Shown here: positions 25,196-30,161 of the stretch, in pieces | Layout: every line of letters begins with the position of its first letter | Numbering within the stretch: position 1 is the first letter of the stretch | Source of the DNA: a virus | Direction: 5' to 3' (one strand) | Length of the DNA stretch: 30,161 nt | IMG/VR virus record: IMGVR_UViG_3300035698_003139 | Span: 1 to 30,161 of that record | The notes under the pieces: model-generated | Databases searched by the model: none | What the model was told of the DNA's origin: nothing | What the model saw: only the letters and a program-made list of their open reading frames with translations | Program-made: the position numbers and the translations under genes

Positions 25196-25867
25196 ATGAA
25201 AGAGAACTTCGCAACGACAACTAGCTGGCTTCTGGTTCATGAGGGTGGTTACGTCAATCACCCAAGAGATCCAGGAGGGGCGACCAATCGCGGTGTGATC
25301 CAACGCACCTATGACGGCTATCGTCGTCGTATCGGCAAGACACTGCAAAGCGTTCGCGACATCACTGAAGCCGAAGTGATGGACATCTACAAGAGCCAGT
25401 ATTGGGACGCGATCCAAGGAGACCTCCTCCCTTCTGGGCTCGACTATGCAGTATATGACTTCGCTGTCAACTCCGGCCCGAGCCGCGCAGCCAAGCATCT
25501 GCAACGCATCCTCGGTGTCACTGTCGACGGTCAGATCGGAAACCTCACACTCGGTGCTATCCGCAAGCGAAATGACATCGAGGGCCTGATCGTTGCTCTG
25601 TGTCGTGGTCGCTGGAATTGGATGAAGACCCTCGGCACCTATGCGACGTTCGGCAAGGGATGGACTCGTCGTGTGATGGGCTACATTGTTGAAGGTCTGC
25701 AACCAGACTCTGACAGCGGTGTCATCGATCGCGCTGTCAAGCTGCACAGGGCAGAACCCAACATCTTGCCCCCTGTTTCTCCCGCACCGGGTAAAGCAGA
25801 GGACATTGATGTGAAGTGGATCGCCAGTATTTTGGCTGCGATTGCCGCTTTCTTTGCCTCACGGTAG
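25196..25867 (+). CDS. Endolysin, GH108 with C-terminal membrane segment
   Basis: The enzyme should cut the glycan of peptidoglycan. The N-terminus has the GH108 signature LVHEGGYVNHPRDPGGATNR with Glu16 as catalytic acid, then YKSQYWDAIQGDLLPSGLDY and DFAVNSGPSRAAKHLQ, and the middle (ILGVTVDGQIGNLTLGAIRK) matches the peptidoglycan-binding 3 type domain that usually accompanies GH108. The 223 residues include a Pro-rich linker (PNILPPVSPAPG) and a hydrophobic end, VKWIASILAAIAAFFASR, that looks like a membrane helix. There is no N-terminal signal, so export would depend on the holin, or on this C-terminal segment. Confidence 0.9.
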   Translation: MKENFATTTSWLLVHEGGYVNHPRDPGGATNRGVIQRTYDGYRRRIGKTLQSVRDITEAEVMDIYKSQYWDAIQGDLLPSGLDYAVYDFAVNSGPSRAAKHLQRILGVTVDGQIGNLTLGAIRKRNDIEGLIVALCRGRWNWMKTLGTYATFGKGWTRRVMGYIVEGLQPDSDSGVIDRAVKLHRAEPNILPPVSPAPGKAEDIDVKWIASILAAIAAFFASR

Positions 25868-25974
25868 GGTCCAGGTATTGCCAACCTGCTCAGGTATTGT
25901 CAGACATTACCCAATAAAAACAAGGTCTTGGGACGTTTGGCAATACCTGCGCCACTGGCAACACACAAACGCCA

Positions 25975-25996
25975 ACCGGGGCCTTTCCGGTGTTTT
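25975..25996 (+). terminator. Weak terminator after lysis cassette
   Basis: ACCGG (25975-25979) pairs with CCGGT (25987-25991) around a 7-base loop, followed by GTTTT. The stem is short, but the place, after the last late gene, suits termination of the late transcript. Confidence 0.4.
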
Positions 25997-26059
25997 ACCC
26001 CAAGAGCCTTTTCAGTATAGTTAGTATTACTTGTATTGTTTTTTAAAGAAAAAGAAGTG

Positions 26060-26088
26060 TTTACAATAGCTTAGGCTGGCAATACAAG
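26060..26088 (+). promoter_or_regulatory. Candidate promoter with overlapping operator
   Basis: TTTACA at 26060-26065 and TACAAG at 26083-26088 are 17 bases apart. The GGCAATAC repeat at 26078-26085 covers the spacer end and -10, as a repressor site would. The promoter points to the HNH gene and the genes beyond it. Confidence 0.5.
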
Positions 26089-26119
26089 GGCAGCACCACA
26101 AAAATATGGGGTGTCAGTA

Positions 26120-26605
26120 ATGCCAGCACAATCAGAAGTCCTTATTACTATGTTCGAGTATCTGCCCTCTATTGGGCTGGTATGGAAAGAACCAAGGAAA
26201 GGAAGTCGAGCAAAGGTAGGAACTCTAGTCGGTGGTAACACTACGAACACAACCATCAGACTATTCGGGAAACGTATTCTCGTTCACCACATAGTCTGGT
26301 TTCTACACAAAGGTTACTGGCCTTCAGATCGCAATGAATGGATAGATCACAAAGACGGAGACAGGCTCAATAACAAGATCGAAAATCTGAGAGTCGCGAC
26401 TCCTGCTCAGAACAATACTAACCGAGCGAACATGGGAAGATACAAGAAAGGTGTAGTTCTACAGAACGGAAAGTTCGCTGCCAGAATATATCAGAACAGG
26501 AAGCCGATCTTTCTTGGTTACTATCTGACCGAAGACGAAGCTGCTGCTGCCTATCGTGGTGCTGCGACTATCTTACACGGTGAGTTCTCTGTCTATGAGA
26601 GGTAA
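26120..26605 (+). CDS. HNH endonuclease with AP2 domain
   Basis: This is a typical phage homing-type endonuclease. An N-terminal part (ITMFEYLPSIGLVWKEPRKG) is followed by the HNH core with HHIVWFLHKGYWP and WIDHKDGDRLNNKIENLRVA, and an AP2-like DNA-binding domain at the end (GKFAARIYQNRKPIFLGYYL, then TEDEAAAAYRGAA). The His pair, the second HxxxD and the Asn-rich helix are the metal and catalytic parts. GTG at 26111 could start a protein three residues longer; ATG 26120 was chosen because neither has a strong ribosome site and ATG is commoner. Such genes often move on their own and insert between modules, as here between lysis and early genes. Confidence 0.88.
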   Translation: MPAQSEVLITMFEYLPSIGLVWKEPRKGSRAKVGTLVGGNTTNTTIRLFGKRILVHHIVWFLHKGYWPSDRNEWIDHKDGDRLNNKIENLRVATPAQNNTNRANMGRYKKGVVLQNGKFAARIYQNRKPIFLGYYLTEDEAAAAYRGAATILHGEFSVYER

Positions 26606-26608
26606 GAC

Positions 26609-26637
26609 TTGCTGCCGACCCTTGGGCCTTATATAAT
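26609..26637 (+). promoter_or_regulatory. Strong promoter before helicase gene
   Basis: TTGCTG (26609-26614), 17 bases, then a perfect TATAAT (26632-26637). The element CCCTTGGGC at 26619-26627 also occurs in the capsid promoter. The start at 26666 has AGGA at 26655-26658. Confidence 0.65.
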
Positions 26638-26665: not shown

Positions 26666-28135
26666 ATGGAACTAGCCGAATACCCTCACGTCATAAAACC
26701 ATTCGGTCATCAGAAGGACCATCTCGAAAACCACCTACAGGAGAAGTCATGGGGTCTGCTCTGGGAGCAAGGCACCGCCAAGACCAAGCCGATCATCGAT
26801 ACGGCGGCGCTGCTGTTCTCGCAAGGAAAGATCAACGGTCTGCTCGTCGTCGCTCCTCCCGGAGTTGAGCGCAACTGGAACACCGACGAAATCCCAAAGC
26901 ACCTTCCCGATGAGTTCGCGCTAGACCTACGTGTGCAGGTGTTCAAAACAGCCAAGAAGGCGACACAGGCACACAAGCGGGCGATGAACAGTCTGTTCCA
27001 CTTCAACGGTCTGTCTGTGCTGCTCATCAGTTACAACGGTTTCATGACCAAAGAGGGCAAGGCTCTGGTCTGGAAGTTTCTCAAAGAACGGAAGTGTCTG
27101 TATGTTCTCGACGAAGCACACAACATCAAGACGCCCAATGCAAAGCGAACAAAGAGTATAGTCGCGTCTTCAAAATATGCAGAGTATCGCCGCATCCTCA
27201 CAGGGACTCCTGTTTCTATTGGGCCTTTCGATCTCTACTCACAGATCAGATTCCTTGATGAATGGTTCTGGAAGAATAAGGGTGTCCATGGAACCGTCGA
27301 GTTCCGTAACCTTTTCGGTCGCTGGTTCACCGCCGCTGAATGCAAACAGCTTCACGGATATGACCCCGGCTACGACAAGCTGATAGAGTATCAGAACCTA
27401 GACAAGCTGTCTGCTTGGATCAGTGAGATTACTGACCGAGTGCTCAAAGACGATGTCCTTGATCTACCACCGAAACTCTACCAGAAGCGTTACTTTGAAA
27501 TGTCGCGCGAGCAGAAGGCGGCTTATGGTCAGCTTGAAGACGAACTGATGCTGGAAATCGGTGATGTCCTCATCTCTGCTGAACTCCCTATCGTCAAGTT
27601 ACTCCGTCTCCAGCAAGTGTCATGTAACTATGTGCCTATCGGTGAGGACGAGCCTGTTCACATGTTCTCTACCAAGAACCCTCGCCTCGGAGCAATGGAG
27701 CAGATCCGTGATGAGACCAATAATCCTGGCATTATTTGGGCTCGCTTCCGAGAAGACATCAACCAGATCATGGACCTCTTGGGCGACAGTGCTGTTCGCT
27801 ATGATGGTGCCGTAGATGATGATCAAGCAGAACGGAACAAGTTGGCTTTCCAACGTGGTGATGCACAATGGTTCGTCGGAAATGCCCAAAAAGGTGGCTC
27901 CGGTCTGACGTTGACGCAAGCTAAGACTATGGTTTATTACTCCAACAGTTTCCGTCTGATTGACCGACTCCAATCAGAGGATCGTGCTCACCGTGGTGGA
28001 ATGGATGAGCATCCTGTGAATTACATCGACATTATGAGTGACTCTCCTATCGATGAGCATATCGTAAACAATCTCAGGAACAAAAGAGCAGTGTCGGCTG
28101 AAATCCTAGAGGATGATCTCAAAGAATGGATCTAA
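26666..28135 (+). CDS. SNF2/DEAH-type helicase
   Basis: The 489-residue superfamily 2 ATPase contains Gln16 upstream (Q motif position), a motif I EQGTAKTK at residues 34-41, motif II DEAH at 149-152 (VLDEAHNIK), motif III LTGTP at 178-182, and motif VI QSEDRAHR at 436-443. The C-terminal lobe also has GNAQKGGSGLTLTQAKTM, typical of SNF2 proteins. The Walker A has Ala where most have Gly (TAKT for TGKT), as in some phage relatives. It is short for SNF2, as phage versions usually are. The role is likely remodelling or unwinding DNA during replication or recombination. It is led by its own promoter. Confidence 0.92.
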   Translation: MELAEYPHVIKPFGHQKDHLENHLQEKSWGLLWEQGTAKTKPIIDTAALLFSQGKINGLLVVAPPGVERNWNTDEIPKHLPDEFALDLRVQVFKTAKKATQAHKRAMNSLFHFNGLSVLLISYNGFMTKEGKALVWKFLKERKCLYVLDEAHNIKTPNAKRTKSIVASSKYAEYRRILTGTPVSIGPFDLYSQIRFLDEWFWKNKGVHGTVEFRNLFGRWFTAAECKQLHGYDPGYDKLIEYQNLDKLSAWISEITDRVLKDDVLDLPPKLYQKRYFEMSREQKAAYGQLEDELMLEIGDVLISAELPIVKLLRLQQVSCNYVPIGEDEPVHMFSTKNPRLGAMEQIRDETNNPGIIWARFREDINQIMDLLGDSAVRYDGAVDDDQAERNKLAFQRGDAQWFVGNAQKGGSGLTLTQAKTMVYYSNSFRLIDRLQSEDRAHRGGMDEHPVNYIDIMSDSPIDEHIVNNLRNKRAVSAEILEDDLKEWI

Positions 28136-29362: not shown

Positions 29363-30161
29363 ATGGCTGGCAAAACTGAAGTAACTGAGACCAAGAACAC
29401 CGCAGTCGGTGCTTCTGTGGGATATGACTACGGCGACGACTCCCACGCAGGTTTTGAAGGGACGACGATCAACGACCTGTCGATCCCGTTCATTACGATC
29501 CTGCAATCGAACTCTCCCGAGGTCGAAGATGAACTGATCGAAGGGTGCAAGCCCGGTGATCTGGTCAACTCCGTGACCAAGGAAATCCTCAAGCAGCCGG
29601 TGGTTCTGATCCCCGTCTACAAGGAAGCGGCAATCGTCGAGTGGGTTCCCAGGACCAAGGGCGGCGGCATGGTCGATCGTCACGAGATGGATTCACAGGT
29701 GTTCAAGGACGCGCTGGCGAAGAACGGTGGGTCACGCATTCCACCCAAGGATGCAGACGGGAAGCGTATCTCGTTCAAGTCACCGGCCGGAAACGATCTC
29801 GTCGAGACGTACTATGTCTACTGCCTCATCATGGACGAGACCGGCACCGAGTCCGAGGGCTACTGCGTCCTTAGCTTCTCGTCAACCAAGATCAAGGTCC
29901 ACAAGGACTGGATGACTGCGATGTATACGATCAAGGGTCGGCCTCCGATCTTTGCGAACCGTGTGCATGTGTCGACTGTCAAGCAGAAGAACGACAGTGG
30001 CACCTATTTCAACTACAAGATCAGCCCGATGGCCGAAAGCTGGCGCTCCAGCTTGATCGATCCGGCTGAACATATGGATCTCCTCACCGAGGCCAAGGAA
30101 TTCGGCAACATGATTGAGAACGGTCTGGCTCGCGCTGACTTTGACTCGGTCGCCGGCTCCG
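29363..30161 (+). CDS. Conserved DNA-metabolism-region protein, 3' end outside window
   Basis: ATG 29363 with AAAGGAG at 29351-29357 opens a frame that stays open to the window end (at least 266 codons). Readable segments are LSIPFITILQSNSPEVEDEL near residue 39, VVLIPVYKEAAIVEWVPRTK, then GGGMVDRHE, and VLSFSSTKIKVHKDWMTAMY further on. The start 'lPFi.ILQ..SPEv....p.GakpGdlvn.vt' and 'EWVPR.kGGG' fit a protein common in siphovirus replication regions, sometimes labelled as single-strand DNA-binding-like. I cannot confirm that label. The gap 29291-29362 before it holds only a small 5-bp hairpin. Confidence 0.8.
   Translation, partial: MAGKTEVTETKNTAVGASVGYDYGDDSHAGFEGTTINDLSIPFITILQSNSPEVEDELIEGCKPGDLVNSVTKEILKQPVVLIPVYKEAAIVEWVPRTKGGGMVDRHEMDSQVFKDALAKNGGSRIPPKDADGKRISFKSPAGNDLVETYYVYCLIMDETGTESEGYCVLSFSSTKIKVHKDWMTAMYTIKGRPPIFANRVHVSTVKQKNDSGTYFNYKISPMAESWRSSLIDPAEHMDLLTEAKEFGNMIENGLARADFDSVAGS

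Follow-up and report, generated by a model that had tools for sequence, protein, structure and literature searches.

The window, the whole stretch of 30161 nucleotides analysed here, is a 30-kb fragment of a virus record whose genes run from terminase through portal, tail and lysis genes to a replication module. An endolysin gene (GH108, 25196-25867) lies directly before a gap, past which come genes for an HNH endonuclease, an SNF2-type helicase and homologues of Pam3 gp32, gp33 and gp34. This order bears out the proposal of a first-pass annotation that the locus is the boundary between late and early genes. Protein comparison of the helicase and gp32 proteins puts the window beside the Pam3 / YuA (Mesyanzhinovviridae) replication module. 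The annotated phage collection gave no DNA-level match to the window, and no relatives of the helicase were found in bacterial genomes; a search with the helicase protein led to 35 IMG/VR loci. The gap (25868-26125) and the region to its right contain the following features.

25875-25883, plus strand: site L-a (GTATTGCCA), within the inverted-repeat arm 25872-25884
25894-25902, plus strand: site L-c (GTATTGTCA), 19 bp from L-a
25938-25946, minus strand: inverted site I1 (GTATTGCCA), within the other inverted-repeat arm, 25937-25949
25956-25964, minus strand: second inverted site (GTGTTGCCA), 18 bp past I1, as in relatives L058 and L079
25974-25997, plus strand: GC-rich stem ACCGG/CCGGT followed by GTTTT, seen in the sequence
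26009-26068: AT-rich island, 80% AT, the AT-richest 60-mer of the window
26015-26041, plus strand: degenerate triplet with a 9-bp period (GTATAGTTA, GTATTACTT, GTATTGTTT), where relatives have their middle triplet
26077-26085, minus strand: inverted site I2 (GTATTGCCA)
26108-26125, plus strand: right site pair, a degenerate GGGGTGTCA at 26108 and GTAATGCCA at 26117
26111-26605, plus strand: HNH endonuclease gene, inserted at the right repeat pair
26609-26637, plus strand: promoter-like sequence of the helicase, past the HNH gene: TTGCTG-N17-TATAAT and the CTTGGGC element shared across the family
26666-28135, plus strand: SNF2-type helicase gene, the first conserved gene of the replication module

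The first-pass annotation had described a perfect 13-bp inverted repeat (CAGGTATTGCCAA at 25872-25884 and its inverted copy TTGGCAATACCTG at 25937-25949), a direct copy (CAGGTATTG(TC), beginning at 25891) and a fourth copy (GGCAATACA, 26078-26086, the present I2), and all of these exist. It had overlooked the minus-strand site at 25956, the plus-strand site at 26117, the triplet at 26015-26041 and the AT-rich island. The promoter that it placed under the fourth copy (TTTACA at 26060, N17, TACAAG) did not hold up: the match is weak, a consensus scan did not return it and, judged by eye, it is inconsistent in relatives. For the helicase, the sequence at 26609-26637 is the better promoter candidate. 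The GC-rich stem at 25974-25997 might, at a stretch, be a late-gene terminator; a terminator scan did not list it. A packaging site is unlikely here, with the terminase gene about 23 kb off at the opposite end of the window.

The 30-kb record contains two exact copies of the word GGTATTGCC, each inside the gap. Allowing one mismatch gives 8 matches, against 3.4 +/- 1.9 by chance, and half of them (4/8) fall within 213 bp. With the site consensus derived from relatives, GT[AG][ATG][ATG]G[TC]CA or in short GTnnnG(T/C)CA, six sites lie in the 258-bp gap (all within 25875-26125) and ten across the other 30 kb of the window, where no 258-bp segment holds more than two. The Poisson probability of this clustering is about 5e-10, for a pattern picked after the fact. 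Between L-a and L-c, the position near 25885 is degenerate.

The likely start of the HNH gene is an ATG at 26120, inside a repeat and in frame. Five phages (the window, L062, L063, L085 and L087) have an HNH reading frame at the right repeat pair, a position suggestive of a homing gene that has the array as its target and uses the ATG of the repeat as its own. Upstream of the helicase, nearly all relatives from YuA to Pam3 have (C)TTGGGC(T)A followed by a -10-like TATAAT or TATACT, which in the window lies at 26620-26637. Between this promoter element and the helicase, four loci (L081, L082, L083 and L088) carry a small reading frame for 71-95 aa that contains ISEAERRR motifs (duplicated in L083 and L088).

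Array geometry across related phages

About 20 related IMG/VR contigs have the array in the same gap, leading from a late or lysis gene to the SNF2 helicase. The word GGTATTGCC itself is absent from the 35 loci of the helicase search and is private to the phage of the window. The gap of most of the 35 loci instead contains arrays of an asymmetric word, (C/T)AAGTnnnG(T/C)CA, whose core triplet is ATG, GAT, GAA, AGA, ATA or ATT depending on the phage, sometimes with two cores in one gap. On the left, up to three direct sites are spaced about 10 bp apart and an inverted site follows 52-54 bp further on. In the middle, three direct sites with a 9-bp period end 92-95 bp past the first inverted site, and on the right another inverted site lies 45-46 bp past the triplet, followed by two direct sites. 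Over roughly 250 bp, spacer lengths in different phages agree to within 1-3 bp (for L059, I2 was positioned by hand and two values are omitted from this range), whereas spacer identity is only 39-55%. The left pair, I1, the 25956 site, I2 and the right site of the window match the registers of the relatives within a few bases, and the middle triplet of the window is degenerate. The array and its geometry are established, and what is conserved is the layout and not the word GGTATTGCC. The exact inverted repeat gave seven hits in IMG/VR, which were discarded as chance or unrelated repeats: none of them encodes relatives of the seven window proteins tested.

More distant members show repeats of their own at this place. 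Before the same helicase, direct as well as inverted repeats reach significance in YuA, RHph_I65 and Epa43; they are made of other words and in places have a 9-bp period (YuA 630/639, RHph 4749/4758, Epa43 1318/1327). The Pam3 gap has significant inverted repeats and the PaMx11 gap significant direct repeats; in the gap of phage Simon there is no excess of inverted repeats and a weak excess of direct ones. The lineage-specific repeats of YuA, RHph_I65, Epa43, Pam3 and PaMx11 imply that the words change while the place stays. In YuA (L094:416-466), a long near-perfect hairpin, GCGCTTGGG...CCCAAGCGC, opens the gap at the position of the left inverted repeat of the window.

The first-pass annotation had proposed looking for the motif elsewhere, and both this record and eight near-complete relatives answer on the side of an origin, with sites almost confined to the gap. 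In the eight relatives the density of strict sites in the gap exceeds that of the remaining genome by a factor of 26 to more than 200, and a weight-matrix scan finds just one or two scattered strong sites per genome outside it, compared with the many dispersed sites of a stoperator system. No sites were found at other promoters of the near-complete relatives. Repeated sites clustered at one locus, where a protein would bind, are what is expected of an iteron origin, as is an adjacent AT-rich region. The island at 26009-26068 is a candidate unwinding element. In six of the eight relatives its counterpart overlaps the 9-bp-period triplet and ranks with the one to three most AT-rich places genome-wide; it is unremarkable in G002 and G010.

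GC skew, also proposed earlier as a check, showed no flip, which says little because the genes run almost wholly one way. DnaA boxes (TTATNCACA, at most one mismatch) are absent from the gap of the window and of five relatives, which argues against a DnaA-dependent origin.

Candidate readers

Either of two phage proteins may read the array, a small tandem-HTH protein or the primase-helicase, and the two are equally good candidates. The window, ending at 30161, is too short to hold either gene. Directly before the primase-helicase gene, nearly all relatives that cover the region encode a small protein with two XRE-type HTH units, which corresponds to YuA gp25 and is found in 77 phage records. 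An AlphaFold model shows the two HTH units (pLDDT 87.7), with a second half similar to 434/P22-type repressors and to Aca proteins. The primase-helicase, gp26 in YuA, combines a RepB_primase-like domain with DUF5906; for its helicase part there is a match to the solved chains 6k9c/6k9e, which are named Primase. Of the phage or host regulator suggested earlier, the host option is disfavoured, since the words differ between phages.

Pam3 (gp55, L130) and RHph_I65 (L131) have a stand-alone DnaA domain-IV protein (PF08299) and no tandem-HTH protein, and the other members tested are without DnaA domain IV. The pattern is suggestive of a swap that may be a single evolutionary event. HTH proteins and site cores showed no significant covariation once relatedness was removed, so the assignment of a reader is a proposal.

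Individual members depart from the usual arrangement. On the 25.7-kb fragment of G016 (L152) the tandem-HTH gene is missing between the RecU-like gene and the primase-helicase gene, and G016 nonetheless has a full array upstream of its helicase (L059). The tandem-HTH gene of G004 (L139) lacks most of the first HTH unit, and that of G018 (L147) has a frame broken in the first unit, either by assembly error or in reality.

Origin, operator or structural element

In this phage, whose replication module is of the Pam3/YuA type, the gap is probably an iteron-type replication origin, possibly combined with a control region. We infer origin status, protein binding and the choice of reader from the arrangement of sites and genes. 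In the proposed mechanism, a phage-encoded protein would bind direct and inverted sites, in fixed arrangement, on both sides of the AT island; the bound array would open the island; and the primase-helicase (RepB-type primase plus SF3-like helicase) would be loaded there and prime synthesis.

The first-pass annotation had left the choice between operator and iterons open, and the confinement of the sites to almost a single gap tips it toward an origin and makes an operator less favoured. Further support comes from the layout kept in about 20 relatives with spacers constant to 1-3 bp, from the AT island inside the array, from the position of the gap at the opening of the replication module, from the tandem-HTH gene that precedes the primase-helicase gene or is replaced by DnaA domain IV, and from the other repeat words that distant relatives have in the same gap. 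The array also persists where the HNH gene moves the helicase promoter by about 500 bp. Counted against an origin are the GC skew without a flip, the absent DnaA box, the HTH/core covariation that was not significant, the G016 array without a tandem-HTH gene, the unremarkable islands of G002 and G010 and the scant repeat signal of Simon. XRE-type HTH proteins are mostly transcription repressors, which counts on the same side.

A multi-site operator, on which the tandem-HTH regulator would switch the early (helicase) unit or separate late from early transcription, is the strongest competitor, though an unlikely one. The two XRE/434-repressor-like HTH units of the likely reader and the repressor or regulator annotations of its relatives speak for it, as do L079 and L064, two phages without the HNH gene in which the helicase promoter closely follows the right sites or overlaps them. 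A two-domain phage repressor acting on an asymmetric site also has precedent (PMC9283540). However, other promoters are without sites, and a 250-bp array round an AT island exceeds what an operator needs. The sites hold no fixed position relative to the promoter either: the TGGGC promoter element lies 21-40 bp beyond the last repeat in the absence of the HNH gene and about 500 bp beyond it where the gene is present, although spacing inside the array is rigid. Because of this displacement and variation, array and promoter do not form one rigid unit.

The left inverted repeat might alternatively act as a stem-loop, either a DNA cruciform or RNA, serving as a pRN1-like origin hairpin, a primase start like RSF1010 ssiA/ssiB or a signal for processing or termination of the late transcript; this is improbable. 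The RNA fold of 25860-26005 beats 200 of 200 shuffles (z = -3.6), and the L3 and I1 arms stay complementary within phages despite core changes, in a permutation test that takes no account of relatedness and in which one row (L063) is mis-registered. For pRN1, too, the putative origin is a stem-loop poorly conserved in sequence, and the pRN1 replication protein has a similar primase-SF3 build. One stem, however, cannot explain the same word in the direct repeats, I2 and the right pair, and since the arms are copies of the binding word, their complementarity follows from shared specificity. No match to an Rfam family was found.

That the repeats have no role for the phage, having spread by slippage or gene conversion or been kept as targets of the homing endonuclease, is very improbable: an HNH gene at the right pair in five phages, starting inside a repeat, and cores that look partly homogenised within one gap would fit, but in most relatives the array occurs with no HNH gene, and spacings kept to 1-3 bp in diverged phages are not what slippage would produce.

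If the origin reading is right, the geometry of this origin has been conserved through a turnover of its recognition words. The literature searched yielded no origin for YuA-type (Mesyanzhinovviridae) or Pam3-type phages, and the gap provides an exact, testable candidate place, shared with lytic Pseudomonas phages that can be grown in laboratory strains, with named candidate readers. A bolder and rather doubtful extension is that exchangeable origin-binding proteins, mostly the tandem-HTH protein with DnaA domain IV in Pam3 and RHph_I65, would serve one primase-helicase at a Pam3/YuA-type origin of fixed geometry whose words have been replaced repeatedly.

Comparison with known systems

At oriV of RSF1010, RepC reads iterons, RepA unwinds and RepB' primes (PMC4980987, PMC4234260). 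The gap resembles this origin in having direct repeats beside an AT-rich stretch, and the phage primase-helicase has a RepB_primase-like domain, with a separate small DNA-binding protein that would act as RepC. In contrast to the long iterons of plasmids, the words here are about 11 bp, with a 9-10 bp period and inverted copies. The array also lies far from the gene of its candidate reader, the words differ by phage and the function is putative.

ColE2 Rep and the alpha protein of phage P4 are initiators that also act as primases (PMC4980987, PMC4234260). The phage primase-helicase could likewise bind repeats at its own origin, and the repeats are few and short as in those systems. In the phages, by contrast, binding is putative, and so would be any winged-helix or PriCT domain of the reader.

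In pRN1, the small DNA-binding protein orf56 and the primase-helicase orf904 are accompanied by a putative stem-loop origin (PMC4234260). The phages share with it an operon in which the gene of a small DNA-binding protein comes before that of a primase-SF3 protein, and an inverted repeat with a loop of about 50 nt in which the sequence changes and the pairing stays. In pRN1 the stem-loop sits immediately 3' of the replication gene without any repeat array, unlike the array and AT island described here. The gap precedes the SNF2 helicase; where a relative has both the gap and the primase-helicase gene, they are thousands of bases apart. The arms covary as compensatory change would have it, but they are also copies of the binding site.

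The operators and stoperators of Cluster A mycobacteriophages are, like the present sites, short and asymmetric, with phage-specific words (PMC9283540). Stoperators are spread genome-wide (PMC9283540), whereas here the sites occur almost only at one locus. The Cluster A reader, a two-domain monomer (PMC9283540), is nevertheless a good model for how the tandem-HTH protein may recognize its sites.
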